This document shows, in pieces, positions 4,785 to 45,526 of a DNA stretch of 45,749 nucleotides. Below the pieces are notes generated by a model, which saw only the letters and a list, made by a program, of their open reading frames with translations, searched no databases and was not told where the DNA came from. Position numbers and translations under genes: made by a program. The DNA lies in IMG/VR virus record IMGVR_UViG_3300011252_000669, positions 1-45,749 of that record. One strand, written 5' to 3'. Positions within the stretch are counted from its first letter, which is position 1. Each line of letters starts with the position of its first letter. This DNA comes from a virus.

Positions 4785-4915
4785 GGGTTTTATTAAAGGA
4801 CAAGAGGAGAACACCCACAAACTATCTCCGTCCTACCGACTGTTTAACGTCTGTCGGGAGACACATAATAAAGCTCACACGTTCAATGCTCACATAACAC
4901 TGCCCTCCGAAGGAA

Positions 4916-4988
4916 AGCGGGTGATCGGGGTCGAACCGACAACATTCAGCTTGGAAGGCTAACGCTCTGCCAATTGAGCTACACCCGC
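4916..4988 (-). tRNA. tRNA-Gly (UCC)
   Basis: A complete cloverleaf on the minus strand: acceptor GCGGGTG/CACCCGC, D-loop TAGCTCAATTGGCAGAGC, anticodon stem-loop with TCC, T-arm GGTTCGA. The discriminator base is U, usual for tRNA-Gly, and CCA is not encoded. It would read GGA codons. Confidence 0.93.
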
Positions 4989-5017
4989 TTGATAAAGAAA
5001 TCTGGACTCAGGTGGGG

Positions 5018-6004: not shown

Positions 6005-6076
6005 TGAGGGCGGCTGGGATCGAACCAGCGACCAGCGGATTAAAAGTCCGATGCTCTACCTCTGAGCTACGCCCCC
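6005..6076 (-). tRNA. tRNA-Lys (UUU)
   Basis: Cloverleaf on the minus strand: acceptor GGGGGCG/CGCCCTC (one G-U pair), D-arm TAGCTCAGAGGTAGAGC, anticodon loop CTTTTAA with TTT, T-arm GGTTCGATC. One mismatch at the base of the anticodon stem. No encoded CCA. Its 5' end overlaps the stop of the 66-residue gene by 10 nt. Confidence 0.92.
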
Positions 6077-8704: not shown

Positions 8705-8786
8705 CGTCAAAAATTCCTTTGTAGAGGTAATAAATCCCTGAAATACAGGCGATTATGATCAAGTATGCTCCGTAAGAATCAATCAT
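8697..8786 (-). CDS. Micro membrane peptide (29 aa)
   Basis: A 29-codon frame (MIDSYGAYLIIIACISGIYY then LYKGIFDDA) between the AAA ATPase and Api92-like genes. Its ATG overlaps the ATPase stop as ATGA and its TAA overlaps the next ATG. It encodes a single transmembrane helix. The double overlap and the membrane-like sequence argue that it is real. Confidence 0.5.
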   Translation of the reverse strand: MIDSYGAYLIIIACISGIYYLYKGIFDDA

Positions 8787-10156
8787 TCGCTGATCCAATC
8801 CACCTGCCAGTTCTTCTCCAGAATCTTGCTTTCCACGGCGTTGTAGGAAGCAATATTCATCTTCCACTTCTTGGCATCTGGCATCCAGAGGACTGGACCC
8901 AAGCTCTTGATATCGTCCTTCTCGGCGAAAGGAACCCTGATGGAGACATGGGTGGCACCTTCCCTAGCGACATTCTCCGCCTCTGCTCGTGCCTCCTTGT
9001 CGAAGTCGGCATCGAGCTTACCATACATCGTCAGGAAGGATTCCTTGGTGGCATCGTCGAATCGGGTGATCGCCATTTCGATCGCCTTCTTCTGATCCTT
9101 GAAGATCGAGTATGCGGTCACGATGTTCGTCAAACGACGAGTGGTGATGATCTCGTCCACGGCATCCTGGTAGTAGCACTGTCGGATCATGTCCGCCCAG
9201 CTGACCAGAGTCTTTGCGAAAGCATCGTCATTGACTCCAAGGCTGTCCATCATCTTCTTGATGATCCGAGTCTCGACATTCTTGGGAGCATATGCCTGCT
9301 CCAGAGTGACCGAGAATCGGTCGAGGAATGCCTCGTTCAGCACGTTCGTACCCACGAACCGACCGTCATCTGACCCCTTGCCTTTGGTGTTGGCAGTGGC
9401 GAAGATCTGGAATCCATCAGCAGGAGTGACCCACTGTCCGATCTTCTTCAAGAAGACACCCTTGCCCTCTAGCACAGGCTGGAGACACATGATATTGTGC
9501 GATGCGAGATCCACCTCGTCAAGAAGCAAGATACCACCCTGCTTCATGGCACGGACCACAGGACCATCACACCAGACGGTCTCGCCGTTGATGAGACGGA
9601 ATCCGCCGAGGAGATCATCCTCGTCAGTCTGCTTGGTGATGTTCACTCGGAACATTTCCCGCTTGAGCTTCGCACATACCTGCTCGATCATGGTGGTCTT
9701 GCCGTTGCCCGACAGACCAGTCACGAACATGGGATAGAACATGCGACTCTTCATGATCGTCACGACATCCCCGAAGTGACCCCATGGGACGTAGGTATCG
9801 ATCTTGCTCGGAACCAAGGAGTCAGACTCGCCACCAGTCATGCCACGAACTTCGCTTGTCGCAGGAGAGACCTTGGGGGTCTCGACAATGGTTTTGACCA
9901 TTGCCTTTTTGGGGAGACTCGTGGTCTCATGGACGACGTTCGTCGCAGACGAACCCAGCTCGTGGATGATGTATTCACCGACGTTTTCGGTCCGACGAGT
10001 CTGATCCTGAGAGATCCAAGCGGGAGGACAGGCGTAAATGCCAGTCGAGAGGCAGAGTGCCTTGATCTCGGTTCGGGTGACGGGAGAGGTCAGACCAGCA
10101 TCACGCATCGCTTCAATGAAGGACTCGCGGGCTGCAATCGATTGGGCAGTTGCCAT
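8783..10156 (-). CDS. cobS: MoxR/CobS-like AAA+ ATPase
   Basis: A 457-residue AAA+ protein. Walker A GLSGNGKT is at about 147-154 and Walker B ILLLDEVD at 209-216, then ATANTKGKGSDDGRFVGTN (sensor 1) and LDRFSV. This is the CobS-like subgroup often found in T4-type cyanophages. A C-terminal segment (about 400-457: VPFAEKDDIKSLG...KKWKM) resembles DUF5710, which is not part of CobS. CobS works with CobT and CobN in cobaltochelatase. A CobT-like VWA gene ends at 31826 but no CobN is seen, so general MoxR-type remodelling is equally possible. The leader from the promoter at 10218 is about 55 nt with GGAG before the ATG. Confidence 0.8.
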   Translation of the reverse strand: MATAQSIAARESFIEAMRDAGLTSPVTRTEIKALCLSTGIYACPPAWISQDQTRRTENVGEYIIHELGSSATNVVHETTSLPKKAMVKTIVETPKVSPATSEVRGMTGGESDSLVPSKIDTYVPWGHFGDVVTIMKSRMFYPMFVTGLSGNGKTTMIEQVCAKLKREMFRVNITKQTDEDDLLGGFRLINGETVWCDGPVVRAMKQGGILLLDEVDLASHNIMCLQPVLEGKGVFLKKIGQWVTPADGFQIFATANTKGKGSDDGRFVGTNVLNEAFLDRFSVTLEQAYAPKNVETRIIKKMMDSLGVNDDAFAKTLVSWADMIRQCYYQDAVDEIITTRRLTNIVTAYSIFKDQKKAIEMAITRFDDATKESFLTMYGKLDADFDKEARAEAENVAREGATHVSIRVPFAEKDDIKSLGPVLWMPDAKKWKMNIASYNAVESKILEKNWQVDWISE

Positions 10157-29215: not shown

Positions 29216-29223
29216 AGAAATAG

Positions 29224-29296
29224 CTCCCCCGACTGGACTCGAACCAGTGACATGCGAGTTAACAGCTCGCCGCTCTACCAACTGAGCTACAGGGGA
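29224..29296 (-). tRNA. tRNA-Asn (GUU)
   Basis: Cloverleaf on the minus strand: acceptor TCCCCTG/CGGGGGA (one G-U), D-arm TAGCTCAGTTGGTAGAGC, anticodon loop CTGTTAA (GTT), T-arm GGTTCGAGTCC. No encoded CCA. Confidence 0.93.
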
Positions 29297-29301
29297 AAAA
29301 A

Positions 29302-29385
29302 TACCGAGGACGGGACTCGAACCCGTAAGACCGTGAGGTCGGCAGATTTTAAGTCTGCTGCGTATGCCGATTCCGCCACCTCGGC
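29302..29385 (-). tRNA. tRNA-Leu (UAA)
   Basis: An 84-nt class II tRNA on the minus strand with a variable arm. Acceptor GCCGAGG/CCTCGGT, anticodon loop CTTAAAA (TAA), T-arm GGTTCGAGTCC. A GAATAAATAA tract, a possible late-box variant, lies directly upstream. No encoded CCA. Confidence 0.93.
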
Positions 29386-29393
29386 TTATTTAT

Positions 29394-29759
29394 TCACTTG
29401 AACCTGACGACACCTTGGTCTGTGGTGTAGAAGATTTCATCAAAAACGGCATCGCACCATGGAGTACATAACCTGCAGGGCCTGCTCATCCTCATCTCTC
29501 CCTCTCGGTTGAATCGGAAGTTGTATAAAGACAAACCGTCTTTCGGTCCTTTATACTTGAGCAATGCATCTAATTCGGAATGTACTTCATCATATCGGTA
29601 TCCGTACTTCTTAGCCAGGGGGTGAGTCTTGAATTGGTTCACCCCCACCGACTCTACGGCTCCCTTGCGGACGATCATCGACACATGCTTTTTCTGTCTG
29701 TCGATGTCCAGTGCCACTGGGAGGGCGATCTCAGTAAACTTTTCGACTCGCAGTCGCAT
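29394..29759 (-). CDS. Cytidine-deaminase-fold protein
   Basis: A 121-residue protein from the ATG at 29759. It has the zinc-deaminase signature: VNQFKTHPLAKKYGY, then VHSELDALLK (H60-S-E62) and about 30 residues later SRPCRLCTPW (PCxxC, C95 and C98). This supplies the His, Glu and two Cys of the CDA/dCMP deaminase superfamily; Ser replaces the usual Ala. Substrate unknown. It overlaps the adenine-deaminase-like gene by 29 nt and the tRNA genes follow. Confidence 0.65.
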   Translation of the reverse strand: MRLRVEKFTEIALPVALDIDRQKKHVSMIVRKGAVESVGVNQFKTHPLAKKYGYRYDEVHSELDALLKYKGPKDGLSLYNFRFNREGEMRMSRPCRLCTPWCDAVFDEIFYTTDQGVVRFK

Positions 29760-30753
29760 CGTCAATCAATCCCAAATAGTGATCCTTCATCTCGTCGTCG
29801 ATGAATGCAGACTTGAAGCTGTTCTTCGCCAGTTCAATGATATGATAGTCATCTAGATCGAATGCATCAGCAACTGCAATGTAGTTATCATTGATATACC
29901 CACCGAAATAGGAAGGATCATCTGAATGGATAGACACCATCACCCCCATTTCGAAAAGATCCATAATATTATGGTCTTCCATCTTGTCGAATACCTTCAG
30001 CTTAACGTTGGATAGAGGACAAATAGTGAGAGGAATCTGGTGCTTAGCAAGATAATTGACCAGAGGAAAATCATCAGAGCACCTCACACCGTGGTCAATC
30101 CTTTCAGCACCAAGGTCGTTCAGAGCACTCCAAACGTATCCAGCAGGACCTTCTTCTCCCGCATGAGCAACGCAGGAGTATCCTTCTTCTTTCGCCTTCT
30201 GAAATACTTCAATGAAATCGTGTGGTGGATTGTCCATCTCGGAAGAGTCCAAACCCACTCCATAGATCGTATCTCTGAACGGAAGAGACTTATGAAGAGT
30301 CTCCATAGCATCCGATGCTGGAAGGTGCCTCAAGAAACACATAATCAGCTTGGTATCAAGACCATAGGTCGCCGCAGCCTCTTCACAAGCACTGTTGATA
30401 CCATTTACGACAGTCTCGATCTCCACCCCACGGGCGGTGTGAGTCTGCGGATCGAAGAAGATCTCTGCATATCTGACATTGTTCAGATGAGCCTTAGCAA
30501 GATAGGCACGGGTCAGTTCATAAAAATCCGATTCATCACACAAGACACTAGCACCCGCATAGTAGATGTCTAGGAATGATTGCAGATCAGAGAAATTATA
30601 TGCCCTTCTTGCTTCTTCTGGAGTCTTGTATGGGATCGAAATCCCATTCTTTTCTGCCAGTCTAATCATCATCTCGGGTTCAAGTGTACCCTCAATGTGT
30701 ACGTGTAACTCCGCTTTGGGCAAAGAGTAAATGAGTTCGTTTCGGTCTTTCAT
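29731..30753 (-). CDS. Adenine/adenosine deaminase
   Basis: A 340-residue protein from the ATG at 30753 (GGAG 6 nt upstream), chosen over 30765. Metal and catalytic motifs are intact: ELHVHIEGTLEPEM, CVAHAGEEGP, IDHGVRC, LTICPLSNVKL, VSIHSDDPSYFGGY. The NVRYAEIFFDPQTHTARGVE stretch is typical of the bacterial and fungal adenine deaminase branch rather than classical adenosine deaminase. Predicted reaction: adenine (or adenosine) plus water to hypoxanthine (or inosine) plus ammonia. Paired with a CDA-fold gene. Confidence 0.88.
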   Translation of the reverse strand: MKDRNELIYSLPKAELHVHIEGTLEPEMMIRLAEKNGISIPYKTPEEARRAYNFSDLQSFLDIYYAGASVLCDESDFYELTRAYLAKAHLNNVRYAEIFFDPQTHTARGVEIETVVNGINSACEEAAATYGLDTKLIMCFLRHLPASDAMETLHKSLPFRDTIYGVGLDSSEMDNPPHDFIEVFQKAKEEGYSCVAHAGEEGPAGYVWSALNDLGAERIDHGVRCSDDFPLVNYLAKHQIPLTICPLSNVKLKVFDKMEDHNIMDLFEMGVMVSIHSDDPSYFGGYINDNYIAVADAFDLDDYHIIELAKNSFKSAFIDDEMKDHYLGLIDDATASRKVY

Positions 30754-30773
30754 GAAGTTCTCCATAATGTAAA

Positions 30774-30847
30774 CATGCCTGATAGGACTCGAACCTATGA
30801 CCTGCTGATTAGAAGTCAGCTGCTCTATCCAACTGAGCTACAGGCAC
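30774..30847 (-). tRNA. tRNA-Arg (UCU)
   Basis: Cloverleaf on the minus strand: acceptor GTGCCTG/CAGGCAT (one G-U at the end), D-arm TAGCTCAGTTGGATAGAGC, anticodon loop CTTCTAA (TCT), T-arm GGTTCGAGTCC. No encoded CCA. It would read AGA codons. Confidence 0.93.
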
Positions 30848-30859
30848 ATGATTCAGATA

Positions 30860-31735: not shown

Positions 31736-31836
31736 AGTCTAGTCCTTGATCTTTCAACACAGTTCATACAAACTACCCACCACATGATGAGCAGACGGGC
31801 TGTCATCATCCAAACCTCTAGCGGTTCAGACTCCAT
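31732..31836 (-). CDS. Possible micro membrane protein upstream of endolysin (34 aa)
   Basis: A 34-codon frame (MESEPLEVWMMTARLLIMWW...) that overlaps the end of the CobT-like gene and the start of the endolysin gene (ATGA). It has one membrane helix and a basic C-terminus (CVERSRTRL). Position directly before the endolysin makes a holin-like role conceivable, but this is only positional. Confidence 0.4.
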   Translation of the reverse strand: MESEPLEVWMMTARLLIMWWVVCMNCVERSRTRL

Positions 31837-34084
31837 GACCACAGATCCTGTCGACGAAGATGTCCATGATCTTCGTCAGGCCCTTCTTCTTCTTCGCTTC
31901 TCGGATCATCGCATTCGCCACGACCCGACTGTTCGAACCGACTTGGACATCATCTAGGCCCTTGATCTTCTTGTTTCCTTCTGCCATCATCACGATGTAC
32001 TCGGAGTACCCTCTGGCATCACCGCATGAGATTGCACCTTCGTTCTTGAGACTTTCGCACTTCTTCTCAAATGACTTGCTATCTCCCTGATCAGGAATGG
32101 CACTGGCATAATACTTACCTTCGGTGAGGTAGATCCCGATCACAGGAGCACCAGTCTCATGTCGCAACCACCTGAAAAACGATTCAGTGTTGTAAGCATA
32201 AGCATCTTCGCTTTCGAACAGGGTACCGTCATGAGACTTGAGGATCCTTTGATTGTTGTAATCAATGCTGGACCATGATTTTCCATCCCAAGAATCCTTC
32301 TGGAGAGGACCAGCTCCACTGCAACCGTCGGTGAGGAAGACAGTATTCACCACCTGAACCCCGTGCTTAGACTTGAAGTCGATTACCACTTGACGAGCGG
32401 CGGTGATGGCATCATCGAGAGGAGTACCACCAAGGTGCATTCGGGGATTAGTGATACCCCAGGCCTTCATGTGATTGTAATCCTGCATCATCCCTTCAGA
32501 GAAAAGGTAGGTGAAGCACTCGATCCAGTCGGACCGCTTGAGATCAGAGCTGAGCATGTTCACCAGATGAAGGCTTTCACAGCACTTGACATCGCCGACC
32601 TTCGGACTTTTGTGCATCTCCCTGTGGGCATCACTATCCCATCGAACATCGAACTTGGCATTTCGACTTGCCCACCCAGACGATCGGTGAGACCACGCAT
32701 TGGTGAAGGCATAGACATCGAACGGGATATTCACCTTCTTACAAAACATTGCAAGGACCAACAACTGCTTGACCGTATCGAAAATGTTCGGGGACATCGA
32801 ACCAGACCAGTCGACGAACATCACCAGGCCGTGACTCTGACCATCTTCTACAGTGGATGACTTCAGGAAGATGTCCTCGGACCAGCGATAGTTGATCATC
32901 TTGATCGTATCAAGAATGCCAGTATCCGAGGACATTACCCTCTTCGATTCTTCTGCAGCCTTCCGCATTTCGAATCGCTTGACCATATTGCCCACAATCT
33001 TCTGTGATTCCTTTTGGAAATCCAAGGCAGCCTTCAAGCATCGGATGTACTTGTCTTCGGGAAAACTACACTGCCGATAGGTATTCAGGAAATCCTGGGC
33101 CGAAACAATGATATTCGACAAGTCGATCTGGTTCGGGACGGTCACATACTCCCGATTTCTCGTCCTAGATCCAGGGCTCTTCGCCATATCCTTGAGATTG
33201 TCAGCGAGTGCAGACTGAGTCATGGATTCTTCTGGCAGTGGACCATTGCTAGAACCAGAGCTGGACGGTCCAGAGGAATCATCCTTCTCGTCGCCATCAC
33301 CATCGGTTTCAGTAGAAGGCTCAGATCCTTCATCAGCGGGGTCGGATCCACTGGGGCTCTCACCTTCTCCGTCATCCTCATCTGAATCATCTTCACCACC
33401 ATTAGCAGAACCATTGCCGCTGTCGGATTCAGCCTGCTGGTCACCTTCGGGATCGGCAATGCCAGACTGATTTTCATCAGTCTCATCCTCTTGCTTGGAT
33501 GCAGAGTAGTTCATCAAGGTGACAGCGGTATCGATGACTTCGTCGAAATCTTCACATTCGTCGACCATGGTTACCAAATCCGACTCTTCACTGGTGAATG
33601 GGATCTGCAGCATGGTTCCGACCTTGAAGTGGAGATTCACTCGGTCGATGAAAGACAATTCGCCGAGATCATCGATTCCCGCGACTCCGAAGAAATCACG
33701 TTCGAGCAGCTCGTTGTATGCGGATCGGAAATCGCGACGGAGGCCTGGGAATCGAGACTGGATGTCCTTCTCGATTCGAGCATCTTCGACCACGTTCAGG
33801 TAATCCATCCGAGTACTCTTGGGGATACTATCGGTGGGGTCCATGTCGTCGAGGACCTTTTCCAGATCCACATCGGGGGTGAACAGTGCGTGTCCGACTT
33901 CATGACCGACCAGCATGTCGTAGAGGCTGTTGCTGGCATTCTCCCAGATGGGGAGAGTCAAGGTACGGGACTCGGTGTTGAACATCGCGGTATGCACTGG
34001 CTGGTGCTCCACAGTGATATCCTCGGTCGCCAGCAGCTTTGCCAGCAGACTCTTTGCCTCGGTATTGATCGTAGTAGTGTTCAT
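31826..34084 (-). CDS. cobT: CobT-like VWA protein with HExxH
   Basis: A 752-residue protein from the ATG at 34084, which is leaderless at the promoter 34091-34119; the upstream extension to 34231 is not coding. Residues 55-70 contain LVGHEVGHALFTP (HExxH). About residues 240-330 are acidic Ser/Gly/Asp/Glu-rich linker. The C-terminal part holds a VWA domain with MIDAS DWSGSMS and VFLTDGCSG. This layout is that of CobT-like partners of MoxR/CobS ATPases; the ATPase lies at 8783-10156. Cobaltochelatase function would need CobN, not seen here. Confidence 0.75.
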   Translation of the reverse strand: MNTTTINTEAKSLLAKLLATEDITVEHQPVHTAMFNTESRTLTLPIWENASNSLYDMLVGHEVGHALFTPDVDLEKVLDDMDPTDSIPKSTRMDYLNVVEDARIEKDIQSRFPGLRRDFRSAYNELLERDFFGVAGIDDLGELSFIDRVNLHFKVGTMLQIPFTSEESDLVTMVDECEDFDEVIDTAVTLMNYSASKQEDETDENQSGIADPEGDQQAESDSGNGSANGGEDDSDEDDGEGESPSGSDPADEGSEPSTETDGDGDEKDDSSGPSSSGSSNGPLPEESMTQSALADNLKDMAKSPGSRTRNREYVTVPNQIDLSNIIVSAQDFLNTYRQCSFPEDKYIRCLKAALDFQKESQKIVGNMVKRFEMRKAAEESKRVMSSDTGILDTIKMINYRWSEDIFLKSSTVEDGQSHGLVMFVDWSGSMSPNIFDTVKQLLVLAMFCKKVNIPFDVYAFTNAWSHRSSGWASRNAKFDVRWDSDAHREMHKSPKVGDVKCCESLHLVNMLSSDLKRSDWIECFTYLFSEGMMQDYNHMKAWGITNPRMHLGGTPLDDAITAARQVVIDFKSKHGVQVVNTVFLTDGCSGAGPLQKDSWDGKSWSSIDYNNQRILKSHDGTLFESEDAYAYNTESFFRWLRHETGAPVIGIYLTEGKYYASAIPDQGDSKSFEKKCESLKNEGAISCGDARGYSEYIVMMAEGNKKIKGLDDVQVGSNSRVVANAMIREAKKKKGLTKIMDIFVDRICGHGV

Positions 34085-34090
34085 CCACCC

Positions 34091-34119
34091 ATTGTACCAG
34101 AAAGGCGTCCTCGTGTCAA
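34091..34119 (-). promoter_or_regulatory. Sigma70-type promoter, leaderless start
   Basis: TTGACA (34114-34119), 17-nt spacer ending CTGG, TACAAT (34091-34096), then GGGTGG and the ATG at 34084. Predicted +1 coincides with the A of that ATG. Confidence 0.8.
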
Positions 34120-34138
34120 TTCGGTCAAAAGTATAAAA

Positions 34139-34251
34139 GCAAACCCCCTTCCTGGTATTCGGAAGGGGGTTTGCGTTTGTGGATGAACTGTGGATGAGTT
34201 GTGAATGGCATTGAGACTGGGTCTCAATCAAGTTAGGTGCCTGTTAGGGTC
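34139..34251. repeat. Composite intergenic module, copy C
   Basis: A perfect 14-bp stem (34139-34152 with 34161-34174, C-rich arm) with an 8-nt loop. TGTGGATGA at 34178-34186 and 34189-34197, with a degenerate third copy (TGTGAATGG) at the same 11-nt spacing. ATTGAGAC/GTCTCAAT inverted repeat (34210-34228). GTTAGG units from 34232 to the RNR stop at 34250. Order of the last two parts is swapped relative to copies A and B. Confidence 0.75.
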
Positions 34252-36187
34252 AATCTTCCGAGGTCAGATCGACCACTTCACAGGATCCAGCGGAGCAGGC
34301 CAGAGTCTGAGATCCAGCAGTGTTGTCTTCCTTCTCATAGGTCGACAACTCCGACCAATCTACATCTTGGGGCATCTTCTCCACAAGACCATTGTACTCC
34401 TCGATTGTGCAATCCTGGTAAGGTGCCTGCTTATAAGAGTGATCACTGAAGGGCAAGAATGAAACACCAGCAACCTCGTCGAAATGATCATAAACCCAAG
34501 CACCAACATCCAACCATTCATGCTCCTTGACTGAGATAGTCACCGAAGGCTTATGCTCACACCAGTGCTTCTGATAGGTCAACCACAATTCCAGCTGCTC
34601 GATCGCACTCATATCCTTCCTGAATACTGCATCTTCAGGAGACTTGATTGGGAAAGAAAAGACCATGGTGGTATCTGGTTTCATAGCACATTTTTCGTGT
34701 GGGAATCCCTTATCAATCATGAAAGAGCACAGAGGATCCCTAGTAGAAGCACGGACTGTGCGAATGTAATAGGGGTTGTGTCGTGCATGGATGCCTGATG
34801 CTGAGTCTACTAACTGGGACACAGTGCCAGAAGGCTTGACGCATGTGATTGAGGCAGACTGACTGATTCCCAGCCTGCTGCACCATTCCTTGTTGGTAGA
34901 AACAGCAGCCTTCTTCAGTTTGGCAAGCAAGTCTGGTAGACCTCCATTATTGTCCTTGCCGTTAAGTAGATTATTGTCCATGATCCCAGTAATTGAAACT
35001 CCCAGGAGTCTTTCTTCTTCACAGTTCTTCTTCCATTCTGCAGATAGATACCTGAAGTCGGTGAGAGTAGATTGCCACGTACCAATGATCGTGGCGACTC
35101 TGACCTTCCGAAGCATATCTTCTTCTGTGTCCCCTTCTCTGGCGACGATCTCAGACAAGTTGCAAAATTCCCGATCCCTAAGGATAATCTCAGAGCAGGG
35201 GTTGGTACCGAAATCATGATCGGGGTCTCTTCTTCCATTCTCTGCCACAGTCTTCTTGGCACTCTCTCTGTTGAAGATTCCTCTTTCCCCGCTCTTGGAT
35301 TCGTAGAGGGACAACCATTCCTGCATGAAAGTACCGACTTCAGGCTTGGACTTGTAGCATACCGAGTTGTTGGACAGTGCTCGCTGGGGATCGATGACCC
35401 ACCATTGCCCACTCTTTGCCCCACGCATTCTTTCATCCGTAAGGGAAGAAAGGGAAATTAGAGCAGCACGACGAACACCACCGACCACGACGATCTCTGC
35501 AATCTTACATACTTGGTCGTGACATTCTAGCGAAGTCATCTTTCTACCAGCGGCCTTCTTGAAGTTATCAACCGTGAATCTGAACATCTCATCGAGAGAT
35601 TCTGGTCCAGAAGAGCGACCACCGAAAGTCTTTAGTCTGGAACCAGAAGGTCGGACCTTGGAAAGATCCCACTTCGGTACCTGCCCAGTGATCAGAAGGG
35701 AGATCAGTTCACGAAGTGCCTTACACCATCCGATCCTGCTGTCTTGCACAACAATCGTGGTGTCAGATTCAGTGAACTCTTCTGCGATAGTTGGAAGCTT
35801 AGCGACGTATTCTCTTTCAACACTGAAACCCACACCAGTTCCACACATCAGAACATACAACACTTCATCGAATGCTCTAACCCTGTTGATTTTAAGATAG
35901 GAGCAGTTGTATCCAGAAACCATATCCTTACGCAACGCCTTACCAGCAGTCATTAAACATCGCATACTGGGCATGACTTCAAGGTTGATAATAGCATCTC
36001 TGACTTCATTTTCAATGCCAGAACCCATTTTATACCCCAGAGTTCTTTCTAGGTGTCCCTTGAAGAAACCGATATATCTGTCTACGGTCTCACCCCAGCT
36101 TTCTCGCTTACCGAGGTCGTCCAACCACCTGGAGTATCTGGACAAGTGGATAAAGGTCTGATAGGGTGTGGGCAGTTCTTCGTTCAT
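34250..36187 (-). CDS. nrdJ: Adenosylcobalamin-dependent class II ribonucleotide reductase
   Basis: A 645-residue protein. Motifs: MPSMRCLMTAGKAL, GYNCSYLKINRVRAF, MCGTGVGFSVE, ETNPCSEI-type FGTNPCSEIILRDREFCNL, KPSGTVSQLVDSASGIHARH, and a C-terminal CSAGSCEV redox pair. This is the monomeric class II (RTPR-like) type that needs coenzyme B12. It supplies dNTPs for replication. It is close to ThyX and dUTPase and begins the block upstream of intergenic module C. Confidence 0.9.
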   Translation of the reverse strand: MNEELPTPYQTFIHLSRYSRWLDDLGKRESWGETVDRYIGFFKGHLERTLGYKMGSGIENEVRDAIINLEVMPSMRCLMTAGKALRKDMVSGYNCSYLKINRVRAFDEVLYVLMCGTGVGFSVEREYVAKLPTIAEEFTESDTTIVVQDSRIGWCKALRELISLLITGQVPKWDLSKVRPSGSRLKTFGGRSSGPESLDEMFRFTVDNFKKAAGRKMTSLECHDQVCKIAEIVVVGGVRRAALISLSSLTDERMRGAKSGQWWVIDPQRALSNNSVCYKSKPEVGTFMQEWLSLYESKSGERGIFNRESAKKTVAENGRRDPDHDFGTNPCSEIILRDREFCNLSEIVAREGDTEEDMLRKVRVATIIGTWQSTLTDFRYLSAEWKKNCEEERLLGVSITGIMDNNLLNGKDNNGGLPDLLAKLKKAAVSTNKEWCSRLGISQSASITCVKPSGTVSQLVDSASGIHARHNPYYIRTVRASTRDPLCSFMIDKGFPHEKCAMKPDTTMVFSFPIKSPEDAVFRKDMSAIEQLELWLTYQKHWCEHKPSVTISVKEHEWLDVGAWVYDHFDEVAGVSFLPFSDHSYKQAPYQDCTIEEYNGLVEKMPQDVDWSELSTYEKEDNTAGSQTLACSAGSCEVVDLTSED

Positions 36188-36236: not shown

Positions 36237-36974
36237 TCAACCCTTGGCAAGATATTTTGAAGACCAAGGAAAAAGGCCTTCCATCACGCCTGAAATAGCA
36301 ATGGCATACTGCCTTATCTCCCACTGTGCATGGTCATCAATCCTCTGACTGATGAACCTCATATAAGCGGCTAGACTTCCAGTCCAGAACCATTCGGTGA
36401 ACATTCCTTGGGGAAGAACAAATCTTGCCTGTTCTGGTGCCACGCCCTGTTCCAAAAGCTGGTTGTATGTATAAATTGCAGATCTGATTGTGTTGTCAAA
36501 TACCTGCTGGGTCTCATTGTCTACATCAATAAAATCTTCACTGCCCTGTTTAGCACCGTTTGTGGGTCTACCTCTCCACTTGGGACGATAGAATTCGGGA
36601 TCAAAAGAGACATATCTTCTGCTAATTTCGTTTTCCACAAATCCCTGCTTGTGCTTGAAGAATTGGGTTCTGATAGAGACTGGTGCCTTAATCCTCAGAG
36701 TCACTTGAGGATGTGCGAAAGGCGTCCAATGTCCATGTTCTGCAAGGTATTTGAGTAATTTTCGGTCTTTCTTACTCAGGACATTTAGATCCTCTGCGTG
36801 GTAGGTGGACCCGCTCTCTTTCAGTCGGGACTTAGCATCCTCATCTACATCCCATTCGGTCTCTTTCGCAAATGACACCCTGGCGGCATTACAGACCGTG
36901 AGGTCAGAACCCATGCTATCTACCAGTTGAACAAAACCGCCCTCTACCCCACCAATTTCGATCGGTTCTTTCAT
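36237..36974 (-). CDS. thyX: Flavin-dependent thymidylate synthase ThyX
   Basis: A 245-residue protein started at the ATG at 36974, an ATGA overlap with the GlnII stop. It has HWTPFAHPQVTLRIKAPVSI, then FFKHKQGFVENEISRRYVSF, the ThyX signature (RHRxxSxNExSxRY type) with KHK in place of RHR, as in some phage ThyX. PEQARFVLPQGMFTEWFWTG and SLAAYMRFISQR also fit. It methylates dUMP to dTMP using flavin and folate. Expected length for the family. Confidence 0.88.
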   Translation of the reverse strand: MKEPIEIGGVEGGFVQLVDSMGSDLTVCNAARVSFAKETEWDVDEDAKSRLKESGSTYHAEDLNVLSKKDRKLLKYLAEHGHWTPFAHPQVTLRIKAPVSIRTQFFKHKQGFVENEISRRYVSFDPEFYRPKWRGRPTNGAKQGSEDFIDVDNETQQVFDNTIRSAIYTYNQLLEQGVAPEQARFVLPQGMFTEWFWTGSLAAYMRFISQRIDDHAQWEIRQYAIAISGVMEGLFPWSSKYLAKG

Positions 36975-38050
36975 GAAGAGGTTCCCACCAAAGATGGACA
37001 TTCAACAGAAGAAACAGTCTTCACCAAGCATCTGATAGCACGGTAGGGATCGATATTTGAAGCTGGACGTCTGTCCTCTAGATAACCTTTCCCAGTCTTC
37101 GCAGTGCTGGGTGGGATCCTGACAGAAGCACTCCTATCAGAGTCTCCATAAGAGAAGGAAGCAATACACGCGGTTTCGTGCTTACCAGTCAGTCTCTCGT
37201 TATTCCCCAGTCCGTAGTTCTCAATGTGGTCTACATGGTTCTTTCTCAGGGCATTGCAAATATCTTCAATGTATTCTTCACCACCAACATCTCTGAGGGC
37301 CTTAGTAGAGAAATTAATGTGAGCACCCGAACCGTTCCAATCGCCATGAACGGGCTTAGGAGTCAGACTAATAGAAAGATTTTCTCTCTCTGCTAAGATC
37401 TCCATCAGATATCTCGATACCCACAGATCGTCGCAGATATCCAGTGCGTTAGCAGTTCCAATCTGATACTCCCACTGTCCAAGCATAACCTCTGCATTAG
37501 TTCCACAGAGAGGGATACCACAAGATAGACAGGCGAACGCATGATCTTCTACAAGCTTACGCTGGACTACCACATCTCCGCCCACTCCGCAATAGTACCG
37601 ACCCTGGGGGTGGGGGAACTCGGTGGGGTTAGTAGGCCATCCGATGGGGCGACCGTTATTTGGGTCCAAGAAGGTATATTCTTGCTCGATCCCAAACCAC
37701 ATATCTTCAGAACCCTCAGATGAGATCAGTGCTTCTCTGAGAGACTGTCTGGTGTTGGATGAGTGAACCCCACCGTTCTTATCAAAGACCTCGCAGAGGA
37801 CGATGAAAGAATTGACGCCGATCTGATTTTCGATTGGATTGGAATAGACCCTAATCGGTACCAAAAGGCAATCACTATCGCTACCTTCTGCCTGCTCGGT
37901 GCTCGAGCCATCAAAAGACCATTCTGGAATGTCTTCAACACCGATTTGGTTGTTTTCCGTAGCAACAGTAGCATACTTAGTCTTGCTTCTGATATTGGGT
38001 GTATCGTAACCATCTAACCAAAGATATTCAAACTTACAATTAAATTCCAT
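36971..38050 (-). CDS. glnII: Eukaryotic-type glutamine synthetase (GlnII)
   Basis: A 359-residue protein from the ATG at 38050, which overlaps the primase TGA (TGATG). Family motifs: EYLWLDGYDTPNIRSKTKYA, WFGIEQEYTFLD, GDWNGSGAHINFS, RLTGKHETACIASFSYGDSD, SVRIP, and a near-complete C-terminal EDRRPASNIDPY. This is GS type II, not bacterial GlnA. It makes glutamine from glutamate, ammonia and ATP. The C-terminal 20 residues diverge from the usual ending, but catalytic parts are intact. A very unusual phage gene. Confidence 0.92.
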   Translation of the reverse strand: MEFNCKFEYLWLDGYDTPNIRSKTKYATVATENNQIGVEDIPEWSFDGSSTEQAEGSDSDCLLVPIRVYSNPIENQIGVNSFIVLCEVFDKNGGVHSSNTRQSLREALISSEGSEDMWFGIEQEYTFLDPNNGRPIGWPTNPTEFPHPQGRYYCGVGGDVVVQRKLVEDHAFACLSCGIPLCGTNAEVMLGQWEYQIGTANALDICDDLWVSRYLMEILAERENLSISLTPKPVHGDWNGSGAHINFSTKALRDVGGEEYIEDICNALRKNHVDHIENYGLGNNERLTGKHETACIASFSYGDSDRSASVRIPPSTAKTGKGYLEDRRPASNIDPYRAIRCLVKTVSSVECPSLVGTSS

Positions 38051-39105
38051 CAGATTCTTCTCCATTGATTCAATCTAGCGGTCGCTTCAAGACCAGAAAA
38101 AGTGTTATTATCGATCTCTTTGCGGATTTCTTTCGCAGACCTGTCGAAAATCATATCATTCACATCTTTATGATTGTTCGAACCAGGCCAAATGCACACA
38201 TCCCTACCGCTAGAAATCAACTGCTCATTATACTTAACAATCTGCTTATTCCTTGGTTCGTTATCCAAAACGAAAGTCATGTCTGAATTGGCGAACCTGC
38301 TGGGGATCTTCTGCATGGATCCAGCACCAACCATGGCAATAGAATTAGGGATGAATAGGCTGTCGATGGGACCTTCAACCACGTAGATTCGCTTCTTGGG
38401 GTTAGCACGCCACATACCATACCACAGTCTTTCAATACTTTTATCTGCCTTAACGGTGATATATTTCACCGTTCTCCTAGCATTATTCTCGTCCTTCATG
38501 CTGAGAGATCGACCTTGGACCGCAACCACTTCTCCCTCTTTGTTATAAAAAGGTATCACCAATCTGGGGTCATAGGAGAATAATTTCTGGTCTGGATCCA
38601 TATTGGCAGCGAGTTTGCCAAAATTATCCGTAAAGAACAAGATATTCCAATGCTCTTTGGGAATCAGTCTAAGACTGGCGAACTCTACTGCTGGGTGATC
38701 TTTGGGCAGATCTTTAAGGCAGGTGCAACCTTTCGGTCTTTTACCAAACTTGCCTTTAGGAGACAACATCTTGAACACTTCTTCATCCTTCTTCTTCTTA
38801 AAACCGTTATTTATCTTAGGCTTTAAAATACCTCCGCTGAATAACTGCATGCAATATTCTTTGTAGAGGGATGGGTTAGTGTCCTTGAGAAAAGAATGGA
38901 GATTGCACCAGTGATCACAGTTATGACACTTATAAAAGAATCTACCATGCTTAGAATAAAAGTATCCTCTAGCCTTCTTTTTATCCCTTTTGCTGTCTCC
39001 ACAAATGGGACACGAGCAATTGGCGAGAGAATCTTTCTTCCACTTAAAATTGCGTAAACTACCTGCCGCAATGTTAATGAATTGTTTATCTACTATTATG
39101 CTCAT
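38050..39105 (-). CDS. T4 gp61-type DNA primase
   Basis: A 351-residue protein from the ATG at 39105. The N-terminal zinc-binding domain (CSCPICGDSKRDKKKARGYF, FYKCHNCDHWCNLHSFLKD) and the TOPRIM domain (IYVVEGPIDSLFIPNSIAMV, MTFVLDNEPRNKQI, DVNDMIF) closely match T4 gp61. It makes RNA primers for lagging-strand synthesis together with the gp41-type helicase. It overlaps the 70-residue gene by 20 nt. Confidence 0.92.
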   Translation of the reverse strand: MSIIVDKQFINIAAGSLRNFKWKKDSLANCSCPICGDSKRDKKKARGYFYSKHGRFFYKCHNCDHWCNLHSFLKDTNPSLYKEYCMQLFSGGILKPKINNGFKKKKDEEVFKMLSPKGKFGKRPKGCTCLKDLPKDHPAVEFASLRLIPKEHWNILFFTDNFGKLAANMDPDQKLFSYDPRLVIPFYNKEGEVVAVQGRSLSMKDENNARRTVKYITVKADKSIERLWYGMWRANPKKRIYVVEGPIDSLFIPNSIAMVGAGSMQKIPSRFANSDMTFVLDNEPRNKQIVKYNEQLISSGRDVCIWPGSNNHKDVNDMIFDRSAKEIRKEIDNNTFSGLEATARLNQWRRI

Positions 39106-39298
39106 TTTCACCCTGGCCAGGCGTGTCGTTCTTGTACCGATTCACCGCTTGATCGGTTCCCTCTTCTCCTGCACCACCATCAATTTCGGTAATCCAGGAT
39201 TCCGCCCACTTCTTCCATTCCTGTAACTCTGCTTCTTCTGCATTTCTTATTCTTGCATCAGAGTAGGCATCGTCTCGTTCTGGGTCTAAGTTATCCAT
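39086..39298 (-). CDS. Small acidic protein between helicase and primase
   Basis: A 70-residue protein from the ATG at 39298 (AGGA 8 nt upstream). The sequence is acidic and helical (MDNLDPERDDAYSDARIRNA, EAELQEWKKWAESWITEIDG). It has no family match. Its position between helicase and primase genes suggests a replisome-associated helper, by position only. Confidence 0.5.
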   Translation of the reverse strand: MDNLDPERDDAYSDARIRNAEEAELQEWKKWAESWITEIDGGAGEEGTDQAVNRYKNDTPGQGENEHNSR

Positions 39299-39314: not shown

Positions 39315-40697
39315 CTAAATGTTCCAACCAGAGAATTTCTCACCAGACTTGAACTTCTCGCCCAAGTCGTCCCTTATGTAGGTACTTTGACCAGAGTCTA
39401 CAAGATTCTCTTGCTCTAGCCCAGCGGCATCATAAAGCTTCATCTTAGCCCTATTAATACCGACCACGAATCTTCTATTCGTGGCAAGATCGTTATACCG
39501 ATTTTTAAGCTGCTTTACTAGGATCTGATTGTGTGCGTCCAGGTCTTCCGTAGCAATCAATGCAAACATGAAATCTGCCGTTTGAGGAAGGCCGAAAGAC
39601 TCAGATGTGTCTTCTAGTCCAACGTCCGAGCTGGTAAAACCCGTTCTGTTGGTCTGTGTTGCAGTGAAGACTGGAATCTCTGTCTCCATTGCAAGACCTC
39701 GCAGTTCTTCTGCGATCGCCTTAACGTACATGTAAGAATTTACATTAGAAGCATCTTTGAATCTAGCAGCAGCACAAATGTTAAGATAATCAACGAAGAT
39801 GATATCAGGCGAAAAATTCTTCTTGATCTTCAACTCTTCAAGAAGACCTCTGAAGTGGTTGACGTTCGCAGTGGCGGTGGGGTATTCTTTAATGATTAGA
39901 GAACCTGTCACTCTACCAGACACCTTCTCCATTTTCCGATTGTATGATTCCTTAGGCAGCTCGCTAAGTTCATCCATCGTAATGTCCATCAGATTAGCAT
40001 CGATTCTCTCTGCAATCCTTTCTTCTGCCATCTCACACGTGATATAAAGGACATTCTTACCCTGAGTCAAACAATTGGCAGCATGATGGCACATGAAGAG
40101 AGACTTCCCCACTCCTGTGCCAGCTAAGATCACGTTCAGAGTCTTGGTAGGAGTTCCACCATTCGTGATCTGATTGAAATAATCGAGATCGAAAGAGATT
40201 CTCTTCTCTCTGCGATGGTAGAAGTCGTATCTGTCTTCAGAATCCTGAAGGTAGTCGTGTCCAACACTTACATCGAAAGACACAGACAAAGCATCCTGTA
40301 GAAGCTTGGGCAGGTGATTTTTGCTTTGCTTGGACTTGCCGTCAATGATCTGGATGGATTCCAAGATGGCAAGATAAATGGACTTATCTTTGCAGAATTT
40401 CTCGGTAGATTCCACCAACCATTCTTTATCAGGCTTGTCAGTCTTCTTTTCATAGATGGAAGACATGATATCTTTGGCATCTCTAAAATCAGACTCTGTA
40501 AAATCCCCGATCTCGGAGACACAAATACTTAATGCATCCCTGGTGGGAAGGCTATTATATTTACCGACGAACTCCTGAATCTCCCTAAAGACCTTTCTTT
40601 CAACCCTGTCTGAGAAGTATTCTTCCTTCAGGAATGGAAGGACCTTCCTCGTAAATTCTTCATCCTGTACCAGGCTCGCCAGGATCGTCTTTTCCAT
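39315..40697 (-). CDS. T4 gp41-type DnaB-family replicative helicase
   Basis: A 460-residue protein, start chosen at the ATG at 40697 because MEKTILASLVQDEEFTRKVL aligns with the start of T4 gp41. Upstream ATG codons at 40712 and 40718 are possible. RecA-fold motifs: ILAGTGVGKSLFMCHHAANC (Walker A), VLYITCEMAEERIAERIDAN, PDIIFVDYLNICAA (Walker B), TATQTNRTGF, VKQLKNRYNDLATNRRFVVG. Hexameric 5' to 3' helicase of the replisome. Confidence 0.93.
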   Translation of the reverse strand: MEKTILASLVQDEEFTRKVLPFLKEEYFSDRVERKVFREIQEFVGKYNSLPTRDALSICVSEIGDFTESDFRDAKDIMSSIYEKKTDKPDKEWLVESTEKFCKDKSIYLAILESIQIIDGKSKQSKNHLPKLLQDALSVSFDVSVGHDYLQDSEDRYDFYHRREKRISFDLDYFNQITNGGTPTKTLNVILAGTGVGKSLFMCHHAANCLTQGKNVLYITCEMAEERIAERIDANLMDITMDELSELPKESYNRKMEKVSGRVTGSLIIKEYPTATANVNHFRGLLEELKIKKNFSPDIIFVDYLNICAAARFKDASNVNSYMYVKAIAEELRGLAMETEIPVFTATQTNRTGFTSSDVGLEDTSESFGLPQTADFMFALIATEDLDAHNQILVKQLKNRYNDLATNRRFVVGINRAKMKLYDAAGLEQENLVDSGQSTYIRDDLGEKFKSGEKFSGWNI

Positions 40698-40938
40698 CGT
40701 TGGATCTGTCATCGTCATCACCGCCATACTTAGCATCTAAAAGGACGGACAAAACGTTGCCCATCATATCAATCGCACTTTGATTTATTTCATAATTATC
40801 TGGGTTGTCAATGATGTCGTATGTGAAATTGACAGAAGGCTCAGAACCTTCGATCAGATCTCCCTTTTCATCAATACCAGAAAATGAAATCACTCCGTAA
40901 TTGTACCTCAGGTTGACAAAATCGCCATCTAAGATCAC
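40660..40938 (-). CDS. Conserved small protein between UvsX and helicase
   Basis: A 92-residue protein. The only reasonable start in the short gap after UvsX is the GTG at 40938 (VILDGDFVNLRYNYGVISFS). The middle has NYEINQSAIDMMGNVLSVLL and the C-terminus is acidic and Gly/Asp-rich. Similar small proteins with DGDFVNLRYN appear at this position in T4-type marine phages, from memory. Its function is unknown and its ribosome-binding site is weak. Confidence 0.5.
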   Translation of the reverse strand: MILDGDFVNLRYNYGVISFSGIDEKGDLIEGSEPSVNFTYDIIDNPDNYEINQSAIDMMGNVLSVLLDAKYGGDDDDRSNDGKDDPGEPGTG

Positions 40939-40975: not shown

Positions 40976-42034
40976 TCAAACTTCGGGGCTACCTTCCTCA
41001 GATGACTCCTCTTCTCTGTGGGATCCGTACTTGAACTCAATGCCAACAGATTCGTTGATTCGGTCGAGAATTTCATCGGTGTAGTACTGCTCTGGGTTGT
41101 TGTTGATTTGCTTTTCATAGACTTTCCTTCCGTCTGGTAGTTCGATTCTGGTTCCTAGTTTATTGAAAATACCGTACTTGACGGCGATGTCGACCAGACC
41201 ATAATAAGGATTAAGTCCAGTGTCATAATTAAGCTGTACTTGTACCTGCTTGTTTTCCTTTGTCAGTCTGCTCTTGAACAGTTTGCATCTGATGATGTTG
41301 CCGATAATATCGGTCCCATCCTTGTCCTTCTTCTTAGAAAGGTAAACAATCGTAGATGCTGCGTACTTGAGGCCAGAACCCCCACCCATCTCTTTGGTAG
41401 GAACGTATGCACCAACTACATCATAGGTGTGATTGGTGAGGATGAGCGGGATGTGTGCTCTGCCTAACTTGAGGGTCAGAACCCTGAAGGTAGCCTTGAC
41501 CAGCTGTGCTCTGGTCATATCTCTAGTATCTTTACCTTCGGCGGTATCGTTGATTTCCTTGTTCGTACTAAGCATGCCTAGCGAATCAAGCACGATTATC
41601 ATCGGCCTACGCTCGGACTTGTGGGTCTCCAGGACCTTGTCCACGATCGAAATGCATTGATGTCTGAAATCTTCCACAGTCGCGACGGGAAAAATTGCCA
41701 CTCTCTTGGGATCGATCCCTCTTTCCTTGATCATACCAGAAGTGATTGCTTGCTCTGTATCGAAGTAAAGGACCGCTGCGTCTGGATTATCAGATAGGAA
41801 CTTCTTGCAGATATCAAGTGCAAAATAGGTCTTTCCAGTGGCACTTTCACCTGCAATGGCGACGATCTTGTTGTTGGGAATCCCACCATAGATGTCACCA
41901 GATAAAAGACCGTTAAAAATATAGCTGCCTGAATTAATGAAGCCTGTTACGTCGCTTCCTTCAACACCGTCTTCGACGATGCTTGCATATTCATTACCAG
42001 AGTCTTTGATGATAGATTGTAGAAAGTCAGTCAT
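40976..42034 (-). CDS. uvsX: UvsX/RecA-type recombinase
   Basis: A 352-residue protein with RecA-fold motifs: [17 protein letters not shown] (Walker A), [17 protein letters not shown] (Walker B), [31 protein letters not shown]. Fits UvsX of T4, the strand-exchange protein for recombination-dependent replication and repair. The acidic C-terminus ([12 protein letters not shown]) is typical. Its ATG overlaps the polymerase stop as ATGA. Confidence 0.93.
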
Positions 42035-44547
42035 GCGAATAATCCTTCAAGTGTACTTTCTCTTTGTGAACTCCAACCGATGGCATTCAGAATAGAGCGT
42101 AGTGGATCGAGAAACGATTTCTCGAACTGTGTGTCATAATCAACGTAGTCGTGGAGGTCAAATTCCTCTGGCAGCACGTCTGGAAATGTGATTACTCTTT
42201 CCCTTATCGGGTTAGGAGTCTTAATGTATAAGAACTTGGCCTTATCATTCTCCATGATGACCCTATATTTAGTAGTCAGTCCCCTCTTTTTCAAGTGGTA
42301 GTTATATAAAAGGGATCCTTTCACGGCTATTGGGCAATGCTTGCCATAGACTATGGTAGGATCGGAATACTTCTTCAACCCTTTGATGCCTCTGGGGAAT
42401 GCAATATCTTCTGGTACAAGCTTATCAAATTCGGCCCTAACGTCTTCAATGTATTGAACTACTGAGTCTTCGTCGGTGTTCAAGATGAGGCTGATTGAAT
42501 CAGTCAAATATCCTCTGACTGCAGCTGGTGTCGAAGCACGAGTGGTTTCAATTCCAGTCACCTTGATTTTCGGATTCTCATATCTGACGCCCTCGTTGTC
42601 CAGGACATTTAAGATGTACCGCTTTTTCGCTGTCCAGATTCCCTTGTTGGCGATTGCCTCTCTACCCATTTTCATCTTCTGCTGAAAAGCATTTACCTTC
42701 TTCGCCATCTCTGCGTATTGCTCATCGATGTAAGGTAGCATCGCTTCTTTTGAGATCTTATCGAGGAAATCAACAGTTTCCTGTTCCGTCTTATGTGGGC
42801 AAAAACGAGAAACAAGGTCATCGACCCTAAGGTATACTGAGTCTGTGTCAATTGCAACAACGTAGTCTTTATCATCCGATTCTAGAACCTTACTGAGAAA
42901 CTGATTCAGTTTTTGTTCAATCCATCGAATGCTAAACTGTCCTGAAATAGTGATGGCCTCTGCCAAGTGAACGTCGTAATAGCGGCAGTACTCATTACCA
43001 ACCGCTCCATATGCCGAATTCAATTGGACCTTTCTGACCAATTGCTGATTCTGGTATTTGGTGATGTCATACTGCAGACTTTCGTTATCTGGATCTTTCT
43101 CCGCCTTCTGCTGGCACTCGATCATCTTTTTCTTTGCAATCTTCCTCTCTTCATAGAGCTTTTCCATGATAGAGGGCAAAAACCCCTTGAATTCTCGGGT
43201 AAAAGTGACCCCATTAGAAGCGATAGAAAGATCCTTATCTTTCCATTCATCCAGAAACTGATTGGTGGTGCTATCATCGTTCAGCAACCTTTCAGGATCG
43301 ATCAGATTAGAAATCATCTGATCACCCCGATTATTCACTTTGGTCTCTGGACTGACATTATATTGCATAATCAGGTGGGGATATAGACTGTTCAAGTCAA
43401 AAGACATGATCCAATCGTGCATACCAACGATAGGCTCTTTGACATAAGCACCCGCGTACTGCTCCGATTTCGTGGTTGCCGCCCTTGGCGGAATCACAAT
43501 ATCGTGCTCCTTCAGGTAGTGGTAGATAATAGAATCCCACATCTTGACCTGAGAGAAGACATCCATGAAATTGACCTTGGCGGCATATGCAAGAGCGACT
43601 GCCAATTCCATCAACTTCAACTTGTCTTCAAGGCGGGTTACCAGATGCACGTCTTTGACATTGTATTCCATGAACTTCTGAAAATCATTCTTATAGAATT
43701 CACGGATCGAACCGTGTTCTTCATAAGATAACTTCCTCTCACCAAGCTCAACGAACGCAATGTGATCTAGACGATAGGATTCCTGGTTCACATAAGTGAA
43801 TGATTGGTAGAGATCGAAGTAGTCCATGATAGAGATCCCAACAAGATCAAAGATCCGCTGTTCTCTCCCTCGTCGGTGAACAGTCTTTTCCTTGGTGATC
43901 TTCCATGGACTAAGCCGCTTGGCATCACTAGAACTCAGGACCTTCTTGATCCGATTGAAGATGTATGGGATGTCGAAGAATCTGACATTCCACCCAGTGA
44001 CAATATCTGGTTGCTCTTCGTTCCAAAAGTCGAGGAATGTGCTTAAGAGGTCCCTCTCGTCATCGTAACTAAAACAATCCACACCATCAATGTTAAAATC
44101 ACCCAACCCCAGACTAGTAGTCTTATCGCCAATTTGAATAGTGATCGCAATGATCTTCTCCTGAGGGTCATCTACATCTGGAAATCCGAGATCGCAGGTG
44201 GTCTCGATGTCGATCGATGCTACCTTGAGCAAACTATAATCATAATCGACTTCCGACTTTGGAAATTTATCCCCAATGAACTGGCAGTCTAGATTAATGT
44301 CTCCGTAGATCCGAATTCCGCTGACACCATCATACTGCCTGATGAAATCTCGATATTCTTTAATGGAGCCTGGATGGATCGGTTCAACAAACACCCCCTC
44401 CAAATTGCGATATCTAGTCTCGCGTTTGGAGGGGATGAAACATGCTGGGCTGAAATCGGGGTTGTCTTTTACCCGCTTCCCGTTTTCAAAGCCTCGATAA
44501 TAAATTGTGTTGCCGTAAGTCACGACATTAGAATAAAATTCGCTCAT
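42031..44547 (-). CDS. Family B DNA polymerase (T4 gp43-type)
   Basis: An 838-residue protein with a 3'-5' exonuclease domain ([30 protein letters not shown]) and polymerase motifs A ([20 protein letters not shown]), B ([20 protein letters not shown]) and C ([13 protein letters not shown]). Length is close to T4 gp43 (about 900). Replicative polymerase. The ATG sits at the predicted +1 of the promoter at 44554-44582, so the mRNA is probably leaderless. Confidence 0.95.
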
Positions 44548-44956: not shown

Positions 44957-45526
44957 TCATTGGAGACCAGTAGAACCCAGACCACCAACACGATCGGTCT
45001 TTTGCTCTGGTCTATTCTTGGTTTCTTCTAACACGTGGGGTTCGACCCGCATAAGTTCTGCTTGACAAATCCGATCTCCATGACGGACTTGGATATCGAT
45101 ATCACTGTTATTCACCATCAAGGCCTTAATTTCATGAAAGTAGTCACTGTCAATAACACCTTCGCAGTTCGCCACGATGAAGCCTTGCTTAATCGATAGA
45201 CCAGATCTGGGATGTAGGCGGACCGAATACCCAGTGGGAATCTCGAAGATGATACCAGTAGGAATGATCGCTCTATGTCTTGCTGGCACGACTGTATAAG
45301 ATTCGGGATGGTCGGAATTGAAGGTGGTATTTACCTTACCAGGGATTACTTTGTTTTCTGGGGTATAAAGTGTAACGTCTCTGATTTCTGTTTGATGATC
45401 TTCAGCAACAACTGGTCCATGAAGGTGAGCACAAAGATCATAACATGCCGCCTCCTCAGTACTCATCATTGGAGTACGGGCGTTTGGGTGGGTCTTATAA
45501 TAACGAAGAGTGGGAATACTTTGCAT
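44957..45526 (-). CDS. dut: dUTPase
   Basis: A 189-residue protein with all five dUTPase motifs: EEAACYDLCAH (1), HPRSGLSIKQG (2), GVIDSDYFHEI (3), RHGDRICQAELM (4), DRVGGLGSTG (5). Trimeric dUTP pyrophosphatase keeping uracil out of DNA and supplying dUMP for ThyX. A 35-residue insertion between motifs 1 and 2 makes it longer than the bacterial enzyme (about 150). Confidence 0.92.
   Translation of the reverse strand: MQSIPTLRYYKTHPNARTPMMSTEEAACYDLCAHLHGPVVAEDHQTEIRDVTLYTPENKVIPGKVNTTFNSDHPESYTVVPARHRAIIPTGIIFEIPTGYSVRLHPRSGLSIKQGFIVANCEGVIDSDYFHEIKALMVNNSDIDIQVRHGDRICQAELMRVEPHVLEETKNRPEQKTDRVGGLGSTGLQ

Follow-up and report, generated by a model that had tools for sequence, protein, structure and literature searches.

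The window analysed here is the whole stretch of 45,749 nucleotides of virus record IMGVR_UViG_3300011252_000669 (linear, 45.7 kb), and it contains a complete open reading frame (ORF) for a type II glutamine synthetase (GSII) at 36971-38050 on the minus strand, with 360 codons counting the stop and a product of 359 aa. On the same strand it is preceded by genes for a dUTPase (44957-45526), a gp43-type DNA polymerase (42031-44547, 50% identity to gp43 of cyanomyoviruses), the UvsX recombinase (40976-42034, 62% to Pelagibacter phage HTVC008M and Methylophilales phage Melnitz), a DnaB-like (gp41) helicase (39315-40736) and a gp61-type DNA primase (phrog_47; 38050-39111, E=2.3e-70). It is followed, also on the minus strand, by ThyX, the FAD-dependent thymidylate synthase (36237-36974), and a B12-dependent (class II) ribonucleotide reductase (RNR; 34250-36187), which has 61-64% identity to marine alphaproteobacterial phages, among others. 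An adenosine/adenine deaminase family enzyme is encoded at 29731-30765 (minus strand; 501 bits, above the NCBIfam cut-off).

The genes for gp43, UvsX, gp41 and gp61 are all in the window, which places the synthetase on a virus genome. Two contigs, G001 (126 kb) and G007 (136 kb), are syntenic with much of the window and both carry the T4 major capsid protein gp23; on sequence grounds, the window is assigned to a T4-like phage. Host DNA in the contig is ruled out by the phage genes on both flanks and by the synteny with gp23-bearing contigs. A search for near-identical DNA among isolated phages found none. The window also contains a CobS/MoxR-like AAA ATPase (8783-10156) and a large phrog_459 "peptidase" (31826-34231), both of which cyanomyoviruses have as well, and five tRNA genes (Gly, Lys, Asn, Leu, Arg) at 4915-4989, 6005-6076, 29223-29385 and 30773-30848.

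The synthetase matches the GlnII profile (NCBIfam NF041605) with E=2e-116 over residues 5-348, Pfam Gln-synt_C with E=1.4e-17 and, as its best PDB match in a sequence search, Streptomyces coelicolor GlnII (4bax) with E=1.9e-96, so a chance match is excluded for the GSII assignment. Its score of 388.8 bits is under the GlnII equivalog cut-off (500 bits) and it is therefore not filed as an NF041605 equivalog; other phage GSII score 344-433 bits against this profile. The AF2 monomer model (pLDDT 83.2, pTM 0.86) aligns with 4bax at Z 39.2 and 47% identity over 331 residues (VIA-align), and the top 21 PDB entries for the model are all GSII (Z 39 to 33), with GSI at Z 30 or below. No full-length GSII-like model is among the top matches in the viral fold library BFVD.

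The initial annotation proposed a complete GSII gene with intact catalytic motifs and pointed to structural modelling as a way to reveal the loss of a catalytic residue. Its coordinates are exact, the AF2 model has the GSII fold (Z=39 to Streptomyces GlnII), and no such loss is seen: all 19 of the 19 checked active-site positions (D47, S50, E122, E124, Y153, E187, E194, N239, G240, H244, N246, S248, R286, E292, R306, R311, E325, D326 and R327) are identical in the window, S. coelicolor and yeast enzymes. We take these to be the metal, ATP, glutamate and ammonia site residues of published glutamine synthetase (GS) structures. All 19 are also invariant across 67 viral and 80 cellular GSII rows, a count that is biased because some positions fall within the motifs used to fetch the sequences; R286, E292, R306, R311 and R327 lie outside these motifs. 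Judged from these residues and the model, the window gene most likely encodes a catalytically active GSII.

The position of the gene between primase and ThyX, with overlaps of 1 nt and 4 nt as first described, can be read directly from the sequence. The primase-GS junction (38048-38063, minus strand) has a TGATG stop/start (38052-38048), in which 1 nt is common to the primase stop TGA (38052-38050) and the GS start ATG (38050-38048), and a GGAG (38060-38063) inside the primase gene. At the other end, the GS stop TGA (36973-36971) and the ThyX ATG (36974-36972) have 4 nt in common, giving an ATGA overlap (36971-36974, minus strand). The exact starts of both genes are predictions, because earlier ATGs exist at 38065 (in frame, for a GS of 364 aa) and at 37001 (for a ThyX with a 31-nt overlap with GS). 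Lying 9 nt before the GS start, this GGAG could plausibly serve as a ribosome site for GS. Among relatives, a GGAG/GAGG/AGGA motif just before the primase stop is found at 31 of 42 distinct primase 3' junctions, and an ATG overlapping the primase stop at 22 of 42, whatever the next gene. Because of the TGATG and ATGA overlaps and the motif before the primase stop, translation of the synthetase is likely to be coupled to that of its neighbours. Searches of the window, nine related loci, G001 and G007 gave no riboswitch that passed Rfam thresholds, and glutamine riboswitch control of the synthetase was rejected for lack of such matches.

The analyses below use metagenomic contigs fetched by motif patterns as relatives, and all counts are lower bounds, not a census. 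The GS gene family is under purifying selection in the relatives, about as strong as on the replication neighbours: the two closest pairs have Ka/Ks of 0.033 and 0.077 for GS, similar to the neighbouring genes, and these values come from relatives only, since synonymous sites between the window and its nearest relative are saturated.

A survey of viral contigs for GSII beside the primase, as the initial annotation suggested, found further cases. The primase|ThyX slot (site A) contains GS in at least 14 rows of the window lineage, which was collected via primase (the window, L001-L008, L013, L029, L087, L088 and L129), and lacks it in at least 42. The site-A synthetase follows primase and precedes ThyX, or RNR where ThyX has decayed, while in many relatives primase is directly followed by ThyX. 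In L006 (9233-9415) and L005 (3069-3227), ThyX is apparently cut to a C-terminal remnant, and the nearby GS is intact. On the UvsX-DnaB-primase tree, GS presence needs at least two changes, and one close pair differs in it (L086 without, L087/L088 with).

Other cargo is found at site A in relatives, including GDP-fucose synthase with GDP-mannose dehydratase, a UDP-sugar epimerase, a phosphoesterase with a glycosyltransferase, a probable membrane protein, small ORFs and an AsnRS-like (class II synthetase-like) protein; site A may therefore simply tolerate cargo. In L105 (5078-5893), for example, the GS slot is occupied by a class II synthetase-like protein that lacks an anticodon domain, and this family is very common in viral contigs (at least 599 loci). 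Its matches are only weakly AsnRS/AspRS-like, and it is a tentative candidate for a second ammonia-fixing enzyme.

T4-like phages share one GSII family at three alternative sites of the replication cluster. At site B, GS comes after gp47-gp46-u528 and before an exonuclease and the sliding clamp, and at site B' it lies between gp46 and u528; gp23 was found in site A, B and B' records. Site A is unoccupied in G022 and G047, which have a member of this GSII family at site B. G001 and G007 show the opposite: their GS is at site A, and at the site-B position u528 is followed by the next cluster gene, with no GS. Both sites are visible in only these four records, each with one filled and the other empty, and the exclusivity of A and B rests on them. 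The docking site tracks the GS phylogeny, with tree support of 100/98 for the T4-phage GSII family, 100/97 for the site A clade, 100/100 for B' and 96/93 for a clade of the site-B rows plus L010. GS is absent from G023, a gp23-bearing relative of 142 kb, and was not found in the isolates S-MbCM6, HTVC008M and Melnitz in a search run without positive control. The gp46|u528 junction accepts other cargo too, because L340 (3412-4374) has a gene there that is GDP-mannose-dehydratase-like, by resemblance only.

Beyond this family, most members of another GSII clade (11 rows) have GS flanked by RNR upstream and PolB downstream. Our data thus support repeated placement of GSII in clusters for replication or dNTP synthesis. 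The jumbo-phage GSII in this set fall in clades apart from the T4-like family, and in a large clade of them GS is often followed by a 116-aa ORF, thioredoxin and glutaredoxin, a block seen at L022 (8004-10019) and about 20 similar jumbo-phage loci. Some site-B GSII are extended in frame at the N-terminus by a domain that has CGWC and CGTPLF motifs and by a Pro/Gln-rich linker (L018, 7599-9059; also L017, L036, L335, L347, L356, L360, L372, L377, L380 and L390). This domain scores 21.6 bits against Pfam Thioredoxin (cut-off 23.5), and a PDB profile search returned thioredoxin chains alongside spurious designed proteins; because the family match is weak, "thioredoxin/glutaredoxin fold" is the safe description.

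Two statements about origin in the initial annotation were not borne out. GSII was said to be normally cellular, and hundreds of viral loci or contigs, at least, carry it. The window gene was called eukaryotic-type, and its closest relatives are viral and the next, at no more than 54% identity, are bacterial. In the phylogeny with Planctomycetota GlnII that it suggested as a check, these sequences take another place in the tree than the window gene. The tree intersperses viral with cellular GSII, and the starred branches force at least three switches. A recent capture from Planctomycetota or a eukaryote is not favoured, given the low cellular identity and the grouping of the window protein with phage GSII.

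Bacteria often switch off their GSI by adenylylating Tyr397, a residue of its C-terminal segment. The structural alignment of window GSII with Salmonella GSI (1lgr) stops at residue 385, before this tyrosine, and the C-terminal segment that contains it is absent from the 359-aa enzyme. Because the window enzyme ends before the Tyr397 segment, it should escape adenylylation control.

Taken as a whole, we consider it probable that the window encodes a working GSII, a coupled cistron of the primase-ThyX-RNR operon, which escapes the control acting on GSI and feeds host-encoded nucleotide synthesis as well as phage protein. The enzyme, a single-copy member of the T4-phage family at one of several sites in the replication/recombination cluster, would convert glutamate, ammonia and ATP to glutamine, and as a coupled cistron it would appear as DNA synthesis starts. 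With host adenylylation evaded, glutamine would keep flowing and would be spent by host enzymes on purines, GMP, CTP and amino sugars, and also on phage protein. No glutamine amidotransferase of the families PF00117 and PF13522 turned up in ten related records, of which several are short fragments, in searches whose positive controls worked; a phage-encoded glutamine consumer of these two families was rejected on this basis, and any benefit would therefore run via host enzymes. Besides this lack of a phage-encoded consumer, the GlnII score below the equivalog cut-off, the missing GS in G023 and the three isolates, and the other cargo of site A count against our reading. The initial proposal that the gene may relieve a nitrogen limit during infection is plausible. 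A more specific idea, which we offer tentatively and think may well be wrong, is that T4-like and other phages keep GSII as a partner of their own dNTP factory, as a single copy with a shifting docking site and coupled translation. In certain lineages it would be joined to, or lie next to, thiol reductants of the sort that supply RNR, and nitrogen supply would so be tied to DNA-precursor synthesis.

The varied cargo of site A lends itself to another explanation, in which the primase|ThyX junction is permissive for any useful early metabolic gene and GS supports nitrogen supply in general, chiefly for protein, its neighbours being irrelevant to its role. Sugar-nucleotide enzymes, the phosphoesterase and glycosyltransferase, the membrane protein, the AsnRS-like protein and small ORFs do occupy the same slot, and the primase 3' end would offer its ribosome site to whatever gene follows. 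However, GS at three T4-like replication sites, and beside RNR and PolB elsewhere, is more pointed than one permissive slot would predict, and we regard this explanation as unlikely, though it is the strongest of the competitors. The deaminase of the window suggests a different source of benefit. Its best PDB relatives are 3ou8/3pan, presumably adenine deaminase, and it would release ammonia, a possible GS substrate, so that GS might recapture ammonia during the breakdown of host nucleic acids. It is a strong member of the adenosine deaminase family, and among relatives it was found only in phages with a site-A GS (L001, G007 and G068), but G001 and G021 have GS without it, and none of the site-B/B' records searched, several of which are fragments, has it. 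The recycling link is therefore possible but not general, and as the main role of the gene it seems improbable.

A changed substrate has the lowest probability of all and appears very improbable to us. Some ligases of the GS fold act on other substrates, gamma-glutamylmethylamide synthetases (GmaS) match the fold at Z 28-29, and phages do encode amidoligases, so the window protein might join glutamate to a polyamine, base or protein, for example in DNA or tRNA modification. Yet every checked ammonia-site and glutamate-site position is the same as in cellular GSII, GSII structures are far nearer (Z 39) than GmaS, and no modification cassette was recognised among the neighbours.

The recurrent placement of GS in DNA-copying clusters suggests that phages produce a nitrogen donor of their own as they synthesise DNA. 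Nitrogen auxiliary genes are usually listed singly and without genetic context, while here alternative sites are seen together with their empty counterparts in close relatives, so the idea of phages securing nitrogen for their DNA synthesis becomes testable across related phages with and without GS. The combination of a thioredoxin fold with GSII is likewise open to assay.

Phage GS as an auxiliary gene is already known (PMC12619734, PMC13037316, PMC11944383), and type II GS was assigned to viruses in the Global Ocean Sampling survey in 2007 (PMC1821046). In the literature covered, with preprints and most subscription papers outside its scope, nothing was found that describes GSII as a coupled cistron within the replication operons of T4-like phages, alternative GS docking sites or a thioredoxin-fold/GS fusion. 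What is new is thus the shared T4-phage GSII family, its alternative replication-cluster sites and the thioredoxin-fold fusion, and not viral GSII itself. The Global Ocean Sampling group is described in that survey as clustering with GS of eukaryotes and mimivirus rather than of T4-like phages (PMC1821046). Melnitz, a T4-like relative (UvsX 62%), is also linked to glutamine level through a glutamine riboswitch (PMC9004378), but no GS was found in it, and the window has no riboswitch above Rfam thresholds. The GS genes of jumbo phages (moraphages, PMC12619734; a jumbo-phage survey, PMC13037316) are proposed to act on nitrogen supply, so that they resemble the window gene in being phage-borne and in their proposed role. 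Huge phages with genomes of 634-735 kb (LR756501-LR756503, LR745206; unannotated records) also have GSII, with 46-52% identity to that of the window. S. coelicolor GlnII (4bax) is alike in fold, length and all checked active-site positions; unlike it, the window GSII is encoded by a phage within a replication operon, scores below the GlnII equivalog cut-off and falls in a clade with T4-phage GSII.
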